A stretch of DNA of 34,791 nt from a virus, in the IMG/VR virus record IMGVR_UViG_3300017917_000704, positions 1-34,791 of that record, one strand, 5' to 3'. The notes under the pieces are model-generated. The model had not been told where the DNA came from and did not search any database. It saw nothing but the letters and a program-made list of their open reading frames with translations. This document shows positions 4,555 to 23,177 of this stretch, one piece after another. Made by a program: the position numbers and the translations under genes. How positions within the stretch are numbered: position 1 is the stretch's first letter; the number at the start of each line of letters is the position of its first letter.

Positions 4555-5715
4555 ATGCCAATATACGCTTGTTCAAATGGGAAATACAGAATTTCTGATG
4601 GTGAATGTATGTACACTACTCGTGAACACGCAGTAAGCGCATATCAAGCATATTTGGCACAACATCCAGAGGCCGAAAAAGAATTTAAATCGGTTGATAT
4701 GAATAAGGTAAGTTTTGACTTTGACGGCACAATAAGCAAAGAGCAATGGCAACAAAAAGCCATGCAATTAAAAGATCAAGGAAAAACTTTGTATATTGTA
4801 ACTAGAAGGCAAGAAAGTGATAGTGAGCCAGTGTATGCAGTTGCCGACAAAGTTGGTATTCCGCATTCGAGAGTTTACTTTACAAATGGTAAACTTAAAT
4901 GGGAAACAATAAAAAGATTAGGCATTGGAACGCATTATGACAATAATCCAGATGAGATTAAAGCCATCAATGAAAATACCGATGCAAACGGAAAATTAGT
5001 AGTAAGTAAAAATAATTCAATGATATACAATTACAAATCACTTAGCTTAGAAGTTAAGGATGTAGATACAAAGCAAGGAATCGTAACTGGATATTTTTCC
5101 GCTTTTGGAAACGTAGATAGCGATGGCGACATTATGATGCCTGGTGCATTTAAGCGTTCCATTCAAGATTGGGGTCCAGAAGGAAAAGGAAGAATTAAGC
5201 ATCTATTAAATCATGATCCATCTAAACCACTTGGTAAAATCCAAACTTTGAAAGAAGATGAGTATGGACTTTATTATGAAAGTAAGGTTGGTACACATAC
5301 TCTTGGAAAAGATTATATAAAGATGATTGAAAGTGGACTTATTGCAGAACATTCAATCGGATTTAAAACATTGAGAGAGCAAAAAAGTGGAGATGCAAAT
5401 CAAATCCATGAAGTAATGCTTTTTGAAGGATCAAGCCTTACTGCATGGGGTGCAAATGAAGCAACTCCATTACTAGGTATGAAGAATATGAATAGCATTG
5501 AACAAATACAAGATCAGATCAAATCATTTGAGAAATTCATTCGTAATAGCGATGTTACAGATGAAACAATTGATTTGTGTATTTTAAAAGTTAAACAACT
5601 CGCGGAACTTGTTGAACGTATGAGTAGCACAAAGGCAGTCGTTGAGACACCAGCGCAGCAAAAAGAAGAAGAAGTTCCAGTAGAGTCATTTATAAATATT
5701 ATCAATAAATTTTAA
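4555..5715 (+). CDS. HAD-like phosphatase / prohead protease fusion
   Basis: Three parts can be read in 386 residues. Residues 1-38 form a short module (GKYRISDGECMYTTREHA). Residues 50-140 look like a compact HAD phosphatase: DFDGTI with D55 and D57 (motif I), YIVTRRQ at 80-86 (motif II), lysines 113-120 (motif III) and HYDNNPDE with D129 and D133 (motif IV). Residues 165-310 are an HK97-type prohead protease (family S78/U35): GYFSAFGNVDSDGDIMMPGA, HLLNHDP (H216, H220), EHSIGF (S267) and FEGSSLTAWGANEATP. The last 75 residues resemble a helical scaffolding tail. The protease would mature the capsid. The job of the phosphatase part is unknown. Confidence 0.85.
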   Translation: MPIYACSNGKYRISDGECMYTTREHAVSAYQAYLAQHPEAEKEFKSVDMNKVSFDFDGTISKEQWQQKAMQLKDQGKTLYIVTRRQESDSEPVYAVADKVGIPHSRVYFTNGKLKWETIKRLGIGTHYDNNPDEIKAINENTDANGKLVVSKNNSMIYNYKSLSLEVKDVDTKQGIVTGYFSAFGNVDSDGDIMMPGAFKRSIQDWGPEGKGRIKHLLNHDPSKPLGKIQTLKEDEYGLYYESKVGTHTLGKDYIKMIESGLIAEHSIGFKTLREQKSGDANQIHEVMLFEGSSLTAWGANEATPLLGMKNMNSIEQIQDQIKSFEKFIRNSDVTDETIDLCILKVKQLAELVERMSSTKAVVETPAQQKEEEVPVESFINIINKF

Positions 5716-6953: not shown

Positions 6954-7463
6954 ATGCCATATTCATATCACTATTTTAAAGACAACTTCAAAAGTCATTT
7001 ACAAAAGAATTTTGCATCTGATATTAAGATATTGGATGTAGGCCCAGGATCAGGCGGTTATTTTGATCTACTTTGCAAAGATTTTACAAACATAGATGCA
7101 GTTGAGGCATTTGAGCCTTATATAGATCAATTCAATTTACGAGATAAATATAAAAACGTTTATGTTCAAGATGTTCTTGACTTTAATTACAACGATTACA
7201 AATACATGATATTTGGTGATGTTATTGAGCATTTAAGCATTGAAGATGCTTATAATTTGCTTGATGATATTACATCGAAAGGAATATATTGCATGGTGGC
7301 AGTTCCATATTTATTGGAACAAGATGCAGTTGGAGGCAATGTTTATGAGATACATAAACAACCAGATTTAACAATAATGAATTTTAAAGATCGGTTTCCA
7401 ATGATGGAAACTTTTAGATATAATGGACAATACGGAATGTATTTTAACTATCAATATTTATAA
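6954..7463 (+). CDS. Class I SAM-dependent methyltransferase
   Basis: This 169-residue protein has the SAM-binding motif I ILDVGPGSGGY (residues 26-36), an acidic end of strand 2 (VEAFEPY), and a motif IV-like GDVIEHL at 88-94. These fit small-molecule or glycan methyltransferases more than DNA methyltransferases, since no DPPY/NPPY motif is present. It is paired with a glycosyltransferase gene and both lie between capsid and connector genes, a place where accessory genes are often inserted. A role in decorating a virion or host glycan is inference. The protein is short for the family and its C-terminal part is not recognisable. Confidence 0.8.
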   Translation: MPYSYHYFKDNFKSHLQKNFASDIKILDVGPGSGGYFDLLCKDFTNIDAVEAFEPYIDQFNLRDKYKNVYVQDVLDFNYNDYKYMIFGDVIEHLSIEDAYNLLDDITSKGIYCMVAVPYLLEQDAVGGNVYEIHKQPDLTIMNFKDRFPMMETFRYNGQYGMYFNYQYL

Positions 7464-7481
7464 CATTAAAAAAATAGAAGT

Positions 7482-7553
7482 ATGAATATAGTTTGTTCTA
7501 TACATCTATACCCTCCACAACACAATTGCCTCTTGGGGGTGTGTCTTAATTGA
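7482..7553 (+). pseudogene. 5' end of the glycosyltransferase gene, upstream of the hairpin
   Basis: An ATG at 7482, 18 nt after the methyltransferase stop and preceded by an A-rich leader, opens a frame that encodes MNIVCSIHLYPPQHNC. This is the first beta strand and PPxHN segment typical of GT4 enzymes. The frame then enters a hairpin and stops at TGA (7551-7553). The rest of the enzyme continues in another frame from TGC at 7574 (CGAEWMLHH). It is either the first part of a gene read by programmed bypassing or the 5' part of a broken gene. Confidence 0.7.
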
Positions 7554-7568
7554 TGCACCCTCAAGAGG
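7529..7568 (+). other. Hairpin element splitting the glycosyltransferase frame (bypass candidate)
   Basis: Bases 7529-7545 pair with 7552-7568 to give a 17-bp stem (three G-U pairs, no mismatch as RNA) with the loop TTAATT. The stem starts at the last base of a TGC codon (7527-7529). A second TGC lies at 7574-7576, five bases after the stem, preceded by AAGAGG (7563-7568). Skipping 7530-7576 (47 nt) joins PPQHNC to GAEWM in frame. The fold and the frame relation are read directly from the sequence. The bypass mechanism is an inference by analogy with T4 gene 60. Confidence 0.75.
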
Positions 7569-8500
7569 TCGTATGCGGAGCTGAATGGATGTTACACCAT
7601 ATCAATAAACACTTAATTAGCAAAGGACATCACGTTAGAATTTTATTGCATCAAGCCAATCAATACAAGATTAAAAATAATTATGTTTTTGATGGCGTGG
7701 ATGTTTTCCCTCCAAATGAAAATGTAGTTGATAATTTAATGCGTTGGGGAGATGCAATTATTACGCATTTGGACTATACAAGATGGACAATTGGTGCTGC
7801 CAAATTATATAAAAAACCAGTATTTCATCTTATCCATAATAGCCATCCATATCCCGAAATCATTAACTCAGATAGAAATCAACACATTGTGTATAACTCT
7901 TTTTGGCTTAGAGATAAATTGCAATATAAATGGGATAACTTTATATTGACGCCTCCCGTTGATTATCGTTACTACGACCTCAAGATTGATCTAGCGAAGA
8001 ACGAATATATTACTCTGATAAACACAAACGAGAACAAAGGCGGTAAGATATTTGAACAAATTGCTCGTGCATTGCCAAATAAGCGATTTTTAGGCGTTTT
8101 AGGAAGCTATGATCCTCAAATTGATACAAATCTTCCAAATTTAAAATTAGTGCCTAATTCGCCAGATATTACGCAATATTACAAGCAAACTAGGATACTA
8201 CTAATGCCAAGTGAATATGAGAGTTGGGGCAGAACGGCAACGGAGGCTTATTGCTCTGGGATTCCAGTTATAAGCTCAATGGCCGAAGGACTTGTAGAGA
8301 ATTGTGGGAAGGCTGGCATTTACATAAAAGATAGGAATGATATTAAAAGCTGGGTTAAAGCAATTACTGAACTGGATGATGCCAAAAAATATAGTGAGGC
8401 ATCCAAAAAAGCAAAAGAGAGATCAAGAGAGCATGATCCGAGAGAAGCGCTTGATCAATTTGAGACCTGGTTCAGAGAAATGGTTAATAAATATAAGTAA
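7553..8500 (+). CDS. GT4-type glycosyltransferase, main open frame
   Basis: The open frame runs from a TTG at 7550 (ATG at 7553) to 8500. Recognisable enzyme sequence begins only at TGC 7574 (CGAEWMLHHINKHLISKGHHV), the end of the N-terminal Rossmann motif. The C-terminal half has the GT-B signature LLMPSEYESWGRTATEAYCSGIPVISS, with the glutamates that bind the nucleotide-sugar donor. Joined to the 16 codons at 7482-7529 it would make 323 residues, a normal size. On its own it lacks the first beta strand and is unlikely to fold well. The likely role is adding a sugar to a virion or host surface component, with the methyltransferase next to it; the substrate is unknown. Confidence 0.8.
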   Translation: MHPQEVVCGAEWMLHHINKHLISKGHHVRILLHQANQYKIKNNYVFDGVDVFPPNENVVDNLMRWGDAIITHLDYTRWTIGAAKLYKKPVFHLIHNSHPYPEIINSDRNQHIVYNSFWLRDKLQYKWDNFILTPPVDYRYYDLKIDLAKNEYITLINTNENKGGKIFEQIARALPNKRFLGVLGSYDPQIDTNLPNLKLVPNSPDITQYYKQTRILLMPSEYESWGRTATEAYCSGIPVISSMAEGLVENCGKAGIYIKDRNDIKSWVKAITELDDAKKYSEASKKAKERSREHDPREALDQFETWFREMVNKYK

Positions 8501-17987: not shown

Positions 17988-20930
17988 ATGGCAAATACAT
18001 TAAAGATAAAAAGAGGTTTAGCGTCAGGTATTCCGCAAGGACAACTTGCAGAACCTCTATTCACTACTGATACATACGATCTTTATATTGGTAAGGGAAG
18101 CGGTGGAAATCAACGCTTTCAGAAATACATTGCTAGTGGTACAAGTTCACAGTTTTTAAAAGGTGATGGATCGCTTGATAGCAATACTTATCAAACTGCT
18201 TTGACTTTTAGTTCTCCACTTGTAAATACAAGCGGAACGGTTAGCATTCCAGCGGCTACGGGTAGTGTTAATGGATATTTAACAAGTACTGATTGGACAA
18301 CATTTAATAGCAAAGAGCCAGCAATTACGGCTAGCACAACGGCAAAATATTTTAGGGGAGATAAGACATTCCAAACTCTTGATACAAGTGTAGTGCCTGA
18401 AAATGGGCCAGTATATTTTACAGAGCCAAGAGTTCTTGCAACCGTTCTTACGGGATTAAATTTAAGTGGAGGTGGCACAATTGCTGCAACGGATAGCGTT
18501 TTGACGGCATTTGGTAAAGTGCAGAATCAAATATCGGCTCTTGTTGGTGGAGTTTATTATAAAGGCACATGGAACGCAAATACAAATAGTCCGACTTTAA
18601 CAAGCTCAAGTGGAACAAAAGGTTGGTATTATATCGTTACGGTTGCTGGTAGCACTAATCTTGATGGCATTACGGATTGGAAAGTTGGAGACTGGGCCAT
18701 ATTTAACGGAACAACTTGGGATAAAGTTGACAATACGGATGCGGTAAGTAGTGTAAATGGATTTACGGGTGCGGTAAATTTGGGACTTGGTGATATTAGC
18801 AATGTAACACTTACATCTCCTACAAACGCACAATTGCTGCGTTTTAATGGGACAAGCAGCAAGTGGGAGAACTGGACGCCGACTTATATAAGTGCGGCTA
18901 TAACAAGTTTAAATGGATTAACTGGCGCAACACAAACCTTTGCAACGGGAACAACTGGGACTGATTTTGCGATTAGTTCGGCGGGTACTACACATACATT
19001 TAATTTGCCTACGGCTAGTGCGACAAATAGAGGTGCTTTGAGTAGTGCGGATTGGACAACATTTAACTCAAAAGAGCCAGCACTTACAAAAGGTAATTTA
19101 ACTGAAGCAACAAGCTCTGTATTGACAATAACTGGTGGTAGTGGTTCGGTAATTGGTAGTGGAACGACAATACAAGTAAAAAGTGCAAGTGCTACGCAAG
19201 ATGGTGTAGTAACAACTGGAACACAGACAATAGCTGGTGCAAAAACATTTAGCTCAAATGTAACTGGATTAGCGTTTTTAACTTCAGCTAATAGCTATTA
19301 TCAGTTAGGATATGGAGCTGATGTAAATTCAAGAAGCTGGCAGATTAAAAACGATGAGCTTGATCCAGGTGATTTGAATATTATGCAGTCAACAACAAGG
19401 ACTGGAACTACATATTCAACAAAATTTCGCATTAAACCAACTGGTGAAGTTGTTGCTGGTACTGGTACTAATGCTATAATGCTTACAATTAATGGTCAAG
19501 GTTATTTTAGTTATCAACTTGAAGCTGGGTCATTTGTAAAAACAAGTGGAACAAGTTCACAATTCTTAAAAGCTGATGGTAGTGTAGATAGCAATACTTA
19601 TTTAACAACATCAAGTGCATCTTCATCTTATGTACCCTATACTGGTGCAACATCAAGTGTTAATATTGGAAATTATAGCATAACTGCTGCTGGCGGTTTT
19701 TATGTAAATAGTAAAAGTTATTTATATGAAGGTCAATTAAGAATAACTGATATTGTAAATAAGTATAATTACTTAGATTTTAATGCAACTGCAGCTGGTC
19801 ATTATATTACAAGTGGTTTTTATACTGGTGGCGCACAAAGAGCAATCTATATAAGTGCTAAATCAACGTCTGGTCAAAATGTTATTTTCAATACTGATGG
19901 AACTACTACATTATCTGGTGCATTATCTGGTACAAGTGCTACTTTCAGTTCGAGTGTTACGGCAACATCATTAGCTTTAAATGGTTCAATAGCTAATAGT
20001 GGAGATGCAGCTACATTAACTTTAAAGCAATCAAGCACAACATATACTAACGGTATATACTTAGAAAGAGGTGGAGAAAGGAATGGTTACTATATGTATA
20101 TCGGAGGTTCTCTTGATGCTCTAACATTTAGAAGAAACTATTTCGGCACTCAATCCGATGTAATGTCATTAACAAGAGATGGCAATGTGGGTATTGGGAC
20201 GAGCAGTCCACAAGAAAGATTTGAGATAGCTGGACTGAATGGTAATATTAGGTTATATGGCAGAAGCGGTATATCTGAAAACCAAATAAGTGCAAACGTA
20301 TATTATAATGGTACTTCATGGGTCAGAGATAATGCAAGTGGTGCAGTTGCAATAACATTAGATTCAACTAATGGTCAGTTATTGTTTTATACAACATCTG
20401 CAACAAGTGGATTTCCTAGCGAAAGAATGCGTATAACGAGTGGTGGGGATGTTTTTGTAAATACTTTAACATCGTATGCTAAATTTAATGTTGCATATAG
20501 TGATACAAATAATAACGGTATATCTATAAATGAAACAACAGGTGCAGCAAATAGTTATTTAATGCTTTTTAAATCTAATACTGTAACAAAAGGTAGTATT
20601 CAAACTAATAGTGGTAATACAGGTATTAACTATAATGCAACATCTGATTATAGATTAAAAGAAGATTTAAAAGATTATTGTGGTTTAGATATAGTCTCTA
20701 AAATAAACACATACGATTTCAAATGGAAAAATACTAATTATAGGTCTTATGGTGTTTTAGCACATGAATTACAAGAAATACTACCAGATATTGTAGGTGG
20801 TATTAAAGATGCTATTGATAAAGATGGACAAATAATACCACAAGGTGTAGATTATGGTAAATTAACTCCAGTACTTGTTAAAGCTATACAAGAACTTAAA
20901 GCAGAATTAGATATTTTAAAGAATAATTAA
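17988..20930 (+). CDS. Tail fibre protein 2 with S74 chaperone domain
   Basis: This 980-residue fibre starts MANTLKIKRGLASGIPQGQL, a common opening of phage fibres in this host group. Repeats such as SSQFLKGDGSLDSNTY (near 60 and 530) and a module shared with fibre 1 fill the shaft. The C-terminal 110 residues form a Peptidase_S74 intramolecular chaperone: SDYRLKEDLKDYCGLDIVSK, then YGVLAHELQEILPDIV, then the final coiled coil IQELKAELDILKNN. This domain trimerises the fibre and cleaves itself off, usually at the Ser of SDYRLK. The host-binding part should be just upstream (residues about 600-880). Confidence 0.88.
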   Translation: MANTLKIKRGLASGIPQGQLAEPLFTTDTYDLYIGKGSGGNQRFQKYIASGTSSQFLKGDGSLDSNTYQTALTFSSPLVNTSGTVSIPAATGSVNGYLTSTDWTTFNSKEPAITASTTAKYFRGDKTFQTLDTSVVPENGPVYFTEPRVLATVLTGLNLSGGGTIAATDSVLTAFGKVQNQISALVGGVYYKGTWNANTNSPTLTSSSGTKGWYYIVTVAGSTNLDGITDWKVGDWAIFNGTTWDKVDNTDAVSSVNGFTGAVNLGLGDISNVTLTSPTNAQLLRFNGTSSKWENWTPTYISAAITSLNGLTGATQTFATGTTGTDFAISSAGTTHTFNLPTASATNRGALSSADWTTFNSKEPALTKGNLTEATSSVLTITGGSGSVIGSGTTIQVKSASATQDGVVTTGTQTIAGAKTFSSNVTGLAFLTSANSYYQLGYGADVNSRSWQIKNDELDPGDLNIMQSTTRTGTTYSTKFRIKPTGEVVAGTGTNAIMLTINGQGYFSYQLEAGSFVKTSGTSSQFLKADGSVDSNTYLTTSSASSSYVPYTGATSSVNIGNYSITAAGGFYVNSKSYLYEGQLRITDIVNKYNYLDFNATAAGHYITSGFYTGGAQRAIYISAKSTSGQNVIFNTDGTTTLSGALSGTSATFSSSVTATSLALNGSIANSGDAATLTLKQSSTTYTNGIYLERGGERNGYYMYIGGSLDALTFRRNYFGTQSDVMSLTRDGNVGIGTSSPQERFEIAGLNGNIRLYGRSGISENQISANVYYNGTSWVRDNASGAVAITLDSTNGQLLFYTTSATSGFPSERMRITSGGDVFVNTLTSYAKFNVAYSDTNNNGISINETTGAANSYLMLFKSNTVTKGSIQTNSGNTGINYNATSDYRLKEDLKDYCGLDIVSKINTYDFKWKNTNYRSYGVLAHELQEILPDIVGGIKDAIDKDGQIIPQGVDYGKLTPVLVKAIQELKAELDILKNN

Positions 20931-21932: not shown

Positions 21933-22482
21933 TGAGCTTCCGAGTGTTATAGATACGTTTAAAATTACTTCACCGCAAGTTTTAGCACACTTTTTAGCGC
22001 AATGCGCACATGAGAGCGGTAATTTTCGTTATACAAGAGAGAATCTAAATTATAGTGCTGACGCACTTCTCAAAACATTTCCAAAATATTTTAGTAAAGA
22101 CACCGCACAAACGGTTGAACGTAAACCAGAGCTGATTGCAAATATTGTCTATTCTAACCGCATGGGGAATGGCGATAAACAAAGCGGTGATGGATGGAAA
22201 TACAGAGGCAGAGGATATATTCAACTAACTGGAAAAAGCAATTATGTTTCATTTGGTAAATATATTTCGGTAGATTTGTTAAACAATCCAGACTTAGTTG
22301 CTACAAAATATCCATTATTATCAGCCGCATGGTTTTTTGAGATTAAAAAGCTATGGGATATTGCAGCAAAAGATAGCAGCAATGATACTATTAAATTTTT
22401 AACTATGCGCATTAATGGAGGATTTCACGGATTGGAAGAACGAATTAAAAAAACAAATTTTTTTATTACAATTTTGACATGA
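21886..22482 (+). CDS. Endolysin, GH19 chitinase-like muramidase
   Basis: The frame is open from 21808, but the ATG at 21886 (MITKKLITTLPKQVIDELPS) matches the usual start of this family. The 198-residue enzyme has the GH19 pattern: LAQCAHESGNFRYTRENLNY with the likely catalytic E43 and E52, then YRGRGYIQLTGKSNY at 106-120, and the C-terminal TMRINGGFHGLEERIKK. Enzymes of this type cut the peptidoglycan sugar chain. No signal peptide is seen, so it depends on the holin. The C-terminus ends soon after the RINGG motif and runs directly into a homing endonuclease gene, but it looks complete. Confidence 0.88.
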   Translation: MITKKLITTLPKQVIDELPSVIDTFKITSPQVLAHFLAQCAHESGNFRYTRENLNYSADALLKTFPKYFSKDTAQTVERKPELIANIVYSNRMGNGDKQSGDGWKYRGRGYIQLTGKSNYVSFGKYISVDLLNNPDLVATKYPLLSAAWFFEIKKLWDIAAKDSSNDTIKFLTMRINGGFHGLEERIKKTNFFITILT

Positions 22483-23177
22483 ATTATTTAAAACATTATA
22501 ATAATTTAATTAATAGTAGATTGCTTTTAAAAAAAGATCGTTATACTAAAAGAAAAAATGGAGAATATTTTGAAGGTCATCATATTATTCCAAAATATAA
22601 AGGAGGTACTGGAACAAGTTCTCAAGGATTAAAAAATAATAATATTGTTTATCTAACTGCTAGAGAGCATTTTATAGCACATTGGTTATTATGGTTAATT
22701 AATAGAGATCGTCAATCAGCACTTGCTTTTCATAAAATGCTTTCTTGTAATAAAAATCAAAATAGAATAATTAGTTCTTATGGGTATGAAGAAGCTAGAT
22801 TAGCATATAGATTAACAAATATTGGTAATAAATTTGGTATAGGATCAAAAAGAATATATACAGATAAACAAAGAGAACATCATTCAAAAATAATGAAAGG
22901 AATGTGGTCTGGAGAAAAAAACCCATTTTATAATAAAAAACATACAATTGAATCTAAGAAAAAAATATCTGAAAAAGCTAAATTAAGATCAGTTGAAACA
23001 AGACATAATTATAAAGGATTAAGATTATTATTTAAAAATAATATTTTAATAGCTGAATTTAAAACTACAAAAGAACTTGCTAAATATATTTCGTCATCTG
23101 AAAGTAATGTAAGACACGCTTTATCTGGATTACAAAAATCTGTAAAAGGTTATCAAGTAAAATATAAATACAATTAA
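22479..23177 (+). CDS. HNH homing endonuclease with NUMOD modules
   Basis: This 232-residue protein has an HNH core (GHHIIPKYKGG at 33-43, then NNIVYLTAREHFIAHWLL), a NUMOD3-like DNA-binding stretch (GEKNPFYNKKHTIESKKKIS) and a C-terminal NUMOD1-like helix-turn-helix (FKTTKELAKYISSSESNVRH). Such enzymes spread by cutting alleles that lack them. It overlaps the endolysin stop by ATGA and separates endolysin from spanin. Its codons are far more AT-rich than those of its neighbours, a sign of recent arrival. No intron boundaries are visible, so it is a free-standing homing endonuclease. Confidence 0.9.
   Translation: MNYLKHYNNLINSRLLLKKDRYTKRKNGEYFEGHHIIPKYKGGTGTSSQGLKNNNIVYLTAREHFIAHWLLWLINRDRQSALAFHKMLSCNKNQNRIISSYGYEEARLAYRLTNIGNKFGIGSKRIYTDKQREHHSKIMKGMWSGEKNPFYNKKHTIESKKKISEKAKLRSVETRHNYKGLRLLFKNNILIAEFKTTKELAKYISSSESNVRHALSGLQKSVKGYQVKYKYN

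Follow-up and report, generated by a model that had tools for sequence, protein, structure and literature searches.

Long programmed bypassing in bacterial systems has so far rested on one accepted example, gene 60 of bacteriophage T4. Its message contains a 50-nt gap between matched codons, with a hairpin at the take-off site and a GAG located 6 nt ahead of the landing site (PMC3014915, PMC5009743), and ribosomal sliding on it is processive to 56 nt (PMC11194080). In the T4 record (NC_000866), the HNH gene mobA lies upstream of gene 60, and the mobA/gene 60 cassette has been described by Bonocora et al. (2011 PNAS, as cited in PMC10236363). A 2010 review called the bypass apparently unique (PMC3014915); a 2016 review noted that counterparts had long been presumed, and mentions an older report of a 29-nt hop in Prevotella loescheii (PMC5009743). 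Two further systems are relevant. The byps of Magnusiomyces capitatus mitochondria are short coding inserts that are skipped in translation, the proteins being functional (PMC5009743), and the free-standing mob and seg homing endonucleases of T-even phages spread by break repair with co-conversion of the flanks (PMC2988022).

Here we describe an interrupted glycosyltransferase gene of uncultured phages that, in our opinion, most likely belongs to a homing-endonuclease and translational-bypass cassette analogous to T4 mobA/gene 60 but of different anatomy. It should be noted that this reading relies on analogy, and that the ribosomal skip, the cleavage specificity and the protection of carriers are inferred. 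No such cassette in a glycosyltransferase gene is reported in the open-access literature that we searched, subscription papers being mostly outside that search.

An interrupted GT4 gene

The stretch analyzed (hereafter, the window) is an IMG/VR phage contig of 34,791 nt (IMGVR_UViG_3300017917_000704); all carriers and relatives discussed below are likewise uncultured contigs. All features of the gene lie on the plus strand. The 5' part of a GT4 glycosyltransferase (GT) gene, positions 7482–7529, consists of 16 codons, MNIVCSIHLYPPQHNC, corresponding to strand β1 of the fold. Read onward, the frame of ATG 7482 yields MNIVCSIHLYPPQHNC-LLGVCLN and ends at TGA 7551–7553, an in-frame stop for non-skipping ribosomes located 21 nt after the TGC codon of Cys16. 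The GT frame restarts at TGC 7574–7576 (CGAEWMLHH) and is open to position 8500. The 3' part proper, 7577–8500, starts with GGA 7577, comprises 307 codons plus the stop, and matches Pfam Glycos_transf_1 (4.7e-13) and phrog_26352 (6e-61). The enzyme is split between Cys16 and Gly17 by 47 nt (7530–7576, counting the second TGC) that are missing in most relatives; their status as an insertion follows from uninterrupted relatives such as L004, MNIVCSIHLYPPEHNCGAEWMLHH.

The presumed take-off codon, TGC 7527–7529, contributes its third base to the first pair of a 40-nt hairpin (7529–7568), in which 7529–7545 pairs with 7552–7568 to form a 17-bp stem, including three G-U pairs, closed by the loop TTAATT (7546–7551). 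The RNA fold predicted for 7482–7620 has an energy of -47.9 kcal/mol (z -4.75; 0 of 200 shuffles). The 3' strand of the stem ends in a Shine-Dalgarno-like AAGAGG (7563–7568), the GAG of which lies 6 nt before the presumed landing codon, TGC 7574–7576. The function of this element is doubtful in a phage without Shine-Dalgarno signals: an SD-like 4-mer precedes none of the 33 plus-strand ORFs of at least 100 codons in the window. The missing signals suggest, by inference only, a host among the Bacteroidota, the group of the Prevotella hop mentioned above; a lack of such signals is expected in Bacteroidota and their phages. The first-pass annotation, made from sequence alone, had proposed the 47-nt interruption, the 17-bp stem with its loop, the matching TGC codons at 7527 and 7574, and an AAGAGG five bases before the second of them. 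Each of these claims, with all coordinates rechecked, held for the window; the matching codons are, however, not universal among carriers.

Carriers and uninterrupted relatives

IMG/VR was queried with the GT protein, with the hairpin core, and with the pattern SIHLYPPxHNC followed by a non-Gly residue. An insert at exactly the same bond, HNC^GAE, is present in the window and in 21 further contigs, from 20 metagenomes. Another 89 distinct GT proteins have no interruption, so that both kinds of homologue for which the first-pass annotation had proposed to look, gapped and gapless, exist. Searches of GTDB genomes, GenBank phages and PLSDB plasmids returned zero carriers. An assembly fault, another suggestion of that annotation, or a sequencing fault could be argued from contigs that break off at the hairpin (L100) or within about 400 nt of it (L086, L089, L090 and L095). 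This explanation is all but excluded, since 22 contigs from independent metagenomes share the site and the architecture while differing in sequence.

The inserts are of two types. Type A inserts have stems beginning CCTCTTGGGGGTG and end in TGC; they measure 47 nt in the window, L085, L083, L082, L062, L087 and L086, 48 nt in L084, L088 and L101, 49 nt in L094 and L108, and 50 nt in L097, L098, L103 and L104. Type B inserts have unrelated stems and end in AAGA before GGN; they measure 50 nt in L089, L090 and L234, and 51 nt in L092, L095 and L096. That type B interrupts the same bond as type A is indicated by its gapless relatives L222, L223 and L225, which run uninterrupted over the site and read HNC followed by GGE. 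The presumed landing TGC is found in every type A carrier. In type B, a second Cys codon is absent from L089, L090, L095 and L234, while L092 and L096 have one TGC that, lying 9 nt before the resume point, is unusable. Matched CAA codons, considered as a substitute for type B, occur in L089 and L090 only. Most carriers have their first in-frame stop 21 nt after take-off; the exceptions are L089, L096 and L234 (+3 nt) and L097 (+39 nt).

At lengths of 47, 48, 49, 50 and 51 nt, the inserts place the 3' part in every possible frame with respect to the 5' part. For this reason, neither frameshifting, readthrough nor a fixed restart can serve all carriers. Recoding of the TGA would suit only the 48- and 51-nt inserts, which alone are in frame, and not the 47-nt ones; -1 or +1 frameshifting is additionally contradicted by the stops in the loop. 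With every frame represented among the gaps, and with no conserved in-frame start close to the junction, skipping is the general solution.

Split expression, in which a leader peptide ends at the loop stop and the remaining GT is started separately, deserves separate consideration. In the window, TGATG 7551–7555 forms a classic stop-start overlap that would yield MHPQEVVCGAEW, an in-frame ATG lies within the hairpin in the window, L085, L082, L086 and L103, and split proteins beside homing endonucleases are known, as for Aeh1 NrdA (PMC2988022). Against this, the hairpin ATG is missing in the 48-, 49- and 51-nt carriers and in some of the 50-nt carriers, whose first in-frame ATG lies 9–24 nt past the GGN, with loss of the conserved GAE; L095 offers just a TTG at -12. 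Split expression would also drop strand β1 and the loop before the first helix, and Shine-Dalgarno signals are not in use. We therefore consider it unlikely, and re-initiation at TGATG was rejected as a general solution, the start codon being unconserved.

One additional contig, L100, stops exactly at the hairpin (5003–5031; ...HLYPPQHLC-CT) and is a possible 23rd carrier. Such breaks, like those near the hairpin in four carriers, might reflect coexisting gapped and gapless alleles or hindrance of sequencing by the hairpin; both are possibilities only.

A conserved and covarying hairpin

The core of the insert is 40 nt long, with a 17-bp stem whose first pair includes the last base of the Cys codon, a 6-nt loop, and a short tail after it. 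Ten distinct hairpins all have this geometry, and their pairs comprise 148 Watson-Crick, 22 G-U, zero A-C and zero other combinations. The stems of types A and B, although unrelated in sequence, are both fully paired. Nine of the ten inserts have the loop TTAA[TCG]T, and wobble pairs concentrate at stem positions 13–15 in nine of ten. In an eleventh insert, that of L234, the Cys codon is TGT and the partner base has changed with it (T-A); its 40-nt span is unchanged, but the stem has 16 pairs and the loop is larger. Across nine aligned hairpins, 153 of 153 cells are paired and both sides are altered in 11 of the 17 pairs, for a covariation score of 0.722, compared with 0.254 for shuffled alignments (0 of 500) and at most 0.126 for slid ones. 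The hairpin has thus been kept through compensatory changes, an outcome that the first-pass annotation had proposed to look for.

The presence of G-U pairs together with the absence of A-C pairs indicates that selection acts on the sense RNA and not on a palindrome in the DNA. A palindrome or insertion-sequence end was rejected on these grounds, as well as on the unrelated stem sequences; a transcription terminator was rejected because the T-run after the stem is missing. A scan for 17-bp/6-nt hairpins over both strands of 3.41 Mb of fetched DNA returned the GT inserts and only a few other matches, namely TG-repeat tracts at two loci and one AT-rich hairpin in a tail-fibre ORF of the window. 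Such hairpins being almost absent elsewhere, that of the GT gene is not a chance occurrence. At loci other than GT recovered in the endonuclease scan, no comparable gap-like hairpin was found.

Conservation is stronger in the gap than in the coding sequence on either side. In L084 and L088, it is identical at 48 of 48 positions, compared with 40 of 48 in the 5' 48 nt, while dS reaches 0.63 for the endonuclease gene and 0.74 for GT. In L101 and L108, the hairpins are identical at 38 of 39 positions, GT being saturated at synonymous sites.

Selection on the sense RNA is also expected if the gap is excised from the mRNA, either as a minimal hairpin intron or by endonuclease-ligase processing, so that ribosomes meet a continuous message. 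Under RNA removal the frame would be irrelevant, and all carriers could be accommodated, type B among them, with a join at TGC^GGN. Nevertheless, self-splicing RNAs are not known to be this small, and at the gathering threshold Rfam has zero matches in the window. Moreover, the 3' border differs between types, type A having TGC^GG and type B AGA^GG, and the predicted folds lack a bulge-helix-bulge geometry. RNA removal is, in our judgment, improbable.

The interrupted enzyme is maintained

Purifying selection acts on the coding sequence that flanks the gap. The 3' ORFs are full-length wherever the contig permits, that is, in each of the nine type A representatives and in two of type B. For the 3' part, dN is 0.031 and dS 0.536 between L092 and L096, and 0.063 and 0.739, respectively, between L084 and L088. 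The ratio of nonsynonymous to synonymous changes is 52:141 on carrier branches and 33:129 on noncarrier branches, which is no difference (p=0.17); it should be noted that the carrier branches also span time before insertion. The inserts of L108 and L085 look recent, so intact ORFs in these contigs are little proof.

In the AlphaFold model of gapless L004 (pLDDT 84), strand β1 is formed by residues 2–8 and the first long helix by residues 17–31, placing the join between the two. The top Foldseek matches of this model are GT4/GT-B enzymes, for example, MshA and BshA. The 16 N-terminal residues are thus predicted by the model to be integral to the fold, since they supply β1 and the loop before the helix.

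A homing endonuclease accompanies the gap

Of the 22 carrier contigs, 13 have a NUMOD4+HNH_3 endonuclease gene directly 5' of GT, whereas this gene adjoins GT at 0 of 116 noncarrier loci. The gene has about 165–180 codons. The overlap between its stop and the GT start is 4 nt in type A and L089, and 11 nt in L090, L092, L095 and L096; in L234, the stop lies 9 nt ahead of the GT start. Full cassettes, with the hairpin and its tail located 48–54 nt into GT, are exemplified by L084, L085, L108, L101 and L092.

The gap persists after loss of the endonuclease gene in five carriers (the window, L086, L082, L097 and L103), and three lineages retain it without that gene. Compared with gapless L002 and L004, the window contains a 22-nt insertion just 5' of the GT start (7459–7480) that resembles the 3'-terminal part of the endonuclease gene in L085; it is probably the stub of a decayed endonuclease copy, and L086 looks alike. 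The endonuclease gene of L096 (8844–9077) has a large internal deletion that leaves 77 codons and both ends, beside an intact type B gap. This truncated gene is likely to be an intermediate of cassette decay.

The cassette spreads horizontally, with co-conversion-like tracts that end at the gap. Carriers are scattered over the GT tree, on which carrier state requires at least 10 changes. L108 and gapless L177 are identical at 38 of 48 positions in the 5' 48 nt, whereas 3' of the gap they are identical for hundreds of bases, save for GGA/GGT at the junction; L103/L175 and L085/L071 show related patterns. Tracts of this kind are probably the product of homing with co-conversion from a break at the gap site, the cleavage itself being inferred. 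Co-conversion also accounts for the fact that carriers nearly always have GGA or GGG at the join. A basal helix that would pair CCNCC (Pro-Pro codons) with GGAG, although visible in folds, was rejected, as it is non-complementary by inspection in 5 of 15 carriers; co-conversion better explains the GGA preference.

These data bear on the possibility that the insert simply kills GT, being a protective scar of the endonuclease that has spread recently, with a 3' part too young to decay. The patchy, mobile distribution, the near-identity of type A inserts, and the fact that the L108/L177 and L085/L071 insertions look very recent would be consistent with a dead scar. On the other hand, the 3' ORFs are full-length with dN well below dS, carrier branches are not more relaxed, and the five carriers lacking the endonuclease gene have outlasted its loss; compensatory stem changes and a gap more conserved than its flanks would be unexpected. 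A dead scar is therefore unlikely. Decay of the hairpin together with loss-of-function changes in the rest of the gene, named by the first-pass annotation as what would refute bypass, is not observed. Its alternative of a small insertion also holds, the insert being a small mobile insertion.

Comparison with T4 gene 60 and other systems

The parallel with T4 gene 60, drawn already in the first-pass annotation, is made closer by the endonuclease of other carriers, which is invisible from the window alone. In both cases, a free-standing HNH-type endonuclease gene lies upstream of a phage gene interrupted near its 5' end by a single non-coding gap of about 50 nt (47–51 nt here, which is below the limit of processive sliding cited above). 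In both, omission of the gap restores a protein that is continuous in relatives (here, the 89 uninterrupted homologues), gapless relatives exist, and there is evidence of cassette mobility. The hairpin opens from the take-off codon, here at the third position of the Cys codon. Matched flanking codons are shared by the window and all type A carriers, but not by type B. A GAG also lies 6 nt before landing in the window and in the other 47-nt carriers, and 7–9 nt before it in other type A carriers; its role is doubtful, the phage generally lacking Shine-Dalgarno signals.

The differences are also substantial. The host gene encodes a GT4 enzyme rather than a topoisomerase, the endonuclease is of the NUMOD4-HNH_3 family, and the flanking codon is Cys TGC rather than Gly GGA. 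The 17-bp stem with its TTAANT loop fills the gap, whereas the gene 60 stem has 10 bp and a UUCG loop, and no stable hairpin forms in the roughly 30 nt after it. The first ORF has 16–18 codons compared with 46 and lacks KKYK; a nascent-peptide stimulator located 25–30 residues before the P site is impossible with 16 residues. No stop adjoins the take-off codon, the distance being 21 nt in the window and at least 3 nt (L089, L096 and L234). The short first ORF and the non-adjacent stop had been noted as caveats in the first-pass annotation, and both hold. Finally, GT remains beside its endonuclease rather than being split off, and the cassette occurs in many lineages rather than one. By analogy, the GT cassette probably works like the gene 60 cassette, yet it is not a strict member of the gene 60 type.

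Like the GT gap, the Magnusiomyces byps interrupt coding sequence, but they are found at 81 sites of a single mitochondrial genome, in which decoding is relaxed, whereas the GT gap has one fixed site in a phage gene, linkage to an endonuclease, and a strict 17-bp architecture. The T-even mob and seg endonucleases resemble the GT endonuclease in their mode of spread; unlike the GT cassette, they need leave no coding gap that must be skipped.

A proposed homing and bypass mechanism

In the proposed mechanism, the endonuclease would cut or nick the GT genes of gapless phages infecting the same cell, either at HNC^GAE or close to it, and repair would transfer the endonuclease gene, the GT 5' end and the gap into the cut phage. 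The gap would abolish the target, protecting the carrier from cleavage, and would be tolerated because ribosomes skip it. The hairpin is envisaged to fold in or before the A site at the Cys codon, upon which the peptidyl-tRNA-Cys would release; in type A, translation would restart after the second TGC, 47–50 nt on, joining HNC to GAEW. The window would then represent the non-coding half of such a homing cassette, in which the endonuclease has been worn down to the 22-nt stub and the bypassed hairpin alone remains.

That the gap is skipped is likely and well supported. That ribosomes are the skipping agent is inferred, there being no product, cDNA or ribosome data; the bypass proposed in the first-pass annotation is thus supported but not shown biochemically. 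The following points speak against bypass. First, 16–18 codons before the gap are too few for a nascent-peptide signal of the gene 60 type, although some other, shorter signal is possible. Second, without a usable second Cys codon in type B, gene 60-style re-pairing cannot explain all carriers; by inference, type B requires either landing with minimal pairing or RNA removal. Third, a 17-bp hairpin is far stronger than the 10-bp one of T4 and might conceivably block ribosomes.

A bolder version of the bypass reading, which in our opinion could as well be wrong as right, is that of a widespread mobile bypass family in which a rigid, gap-filling 17-bp hairpin suffices and ribosomes hop over the folded stem. 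It would dispense with a long nascent peptide, an adjacent stop, Shine-Dalgarno help and, in type B, a matched landing codon, and would involve no sliding along unfolded RNA.

With at least a dozen natural variants, including covarying stems, variable gap lengths, matched and unmatched landing codons, endonucleases and gapless alleles, these loci constitute a comparative set for establishing which elements are required for RNA to be skipped by a ribosome. They also suggest that selfish DNA repeatedly employs a ribosome-skipped scar to spread without killing its target gene. Gene callers will split genes gapped in this manner.

Other elements in the window and its relatives

The window contains a second, unrelated homing endonuclease gene at 22479–23177 (phrog_655, NUMOD3). 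It was rejected as the partner of the gap, being of the NUMOD3 type, unlinked, and absent from the 23 related phage records searched. The sole non-repetitive match of the hairpin scan outside GT, an AT-rich hairpin of 18 bp with seven G-U pairs at 19695–19734, lies inside the uninterrupted tail-fibre ORF and is probably due to chance. L073, a gapless relative of carrier L082, has an endonuclease gene (1391–1867) 45% identical to that of the cassette. It does not adjoin GT but is located about 550 nt 5' of the GT start; the same holds for L123, and this endonuclease may represent a separate homing element of the same region.
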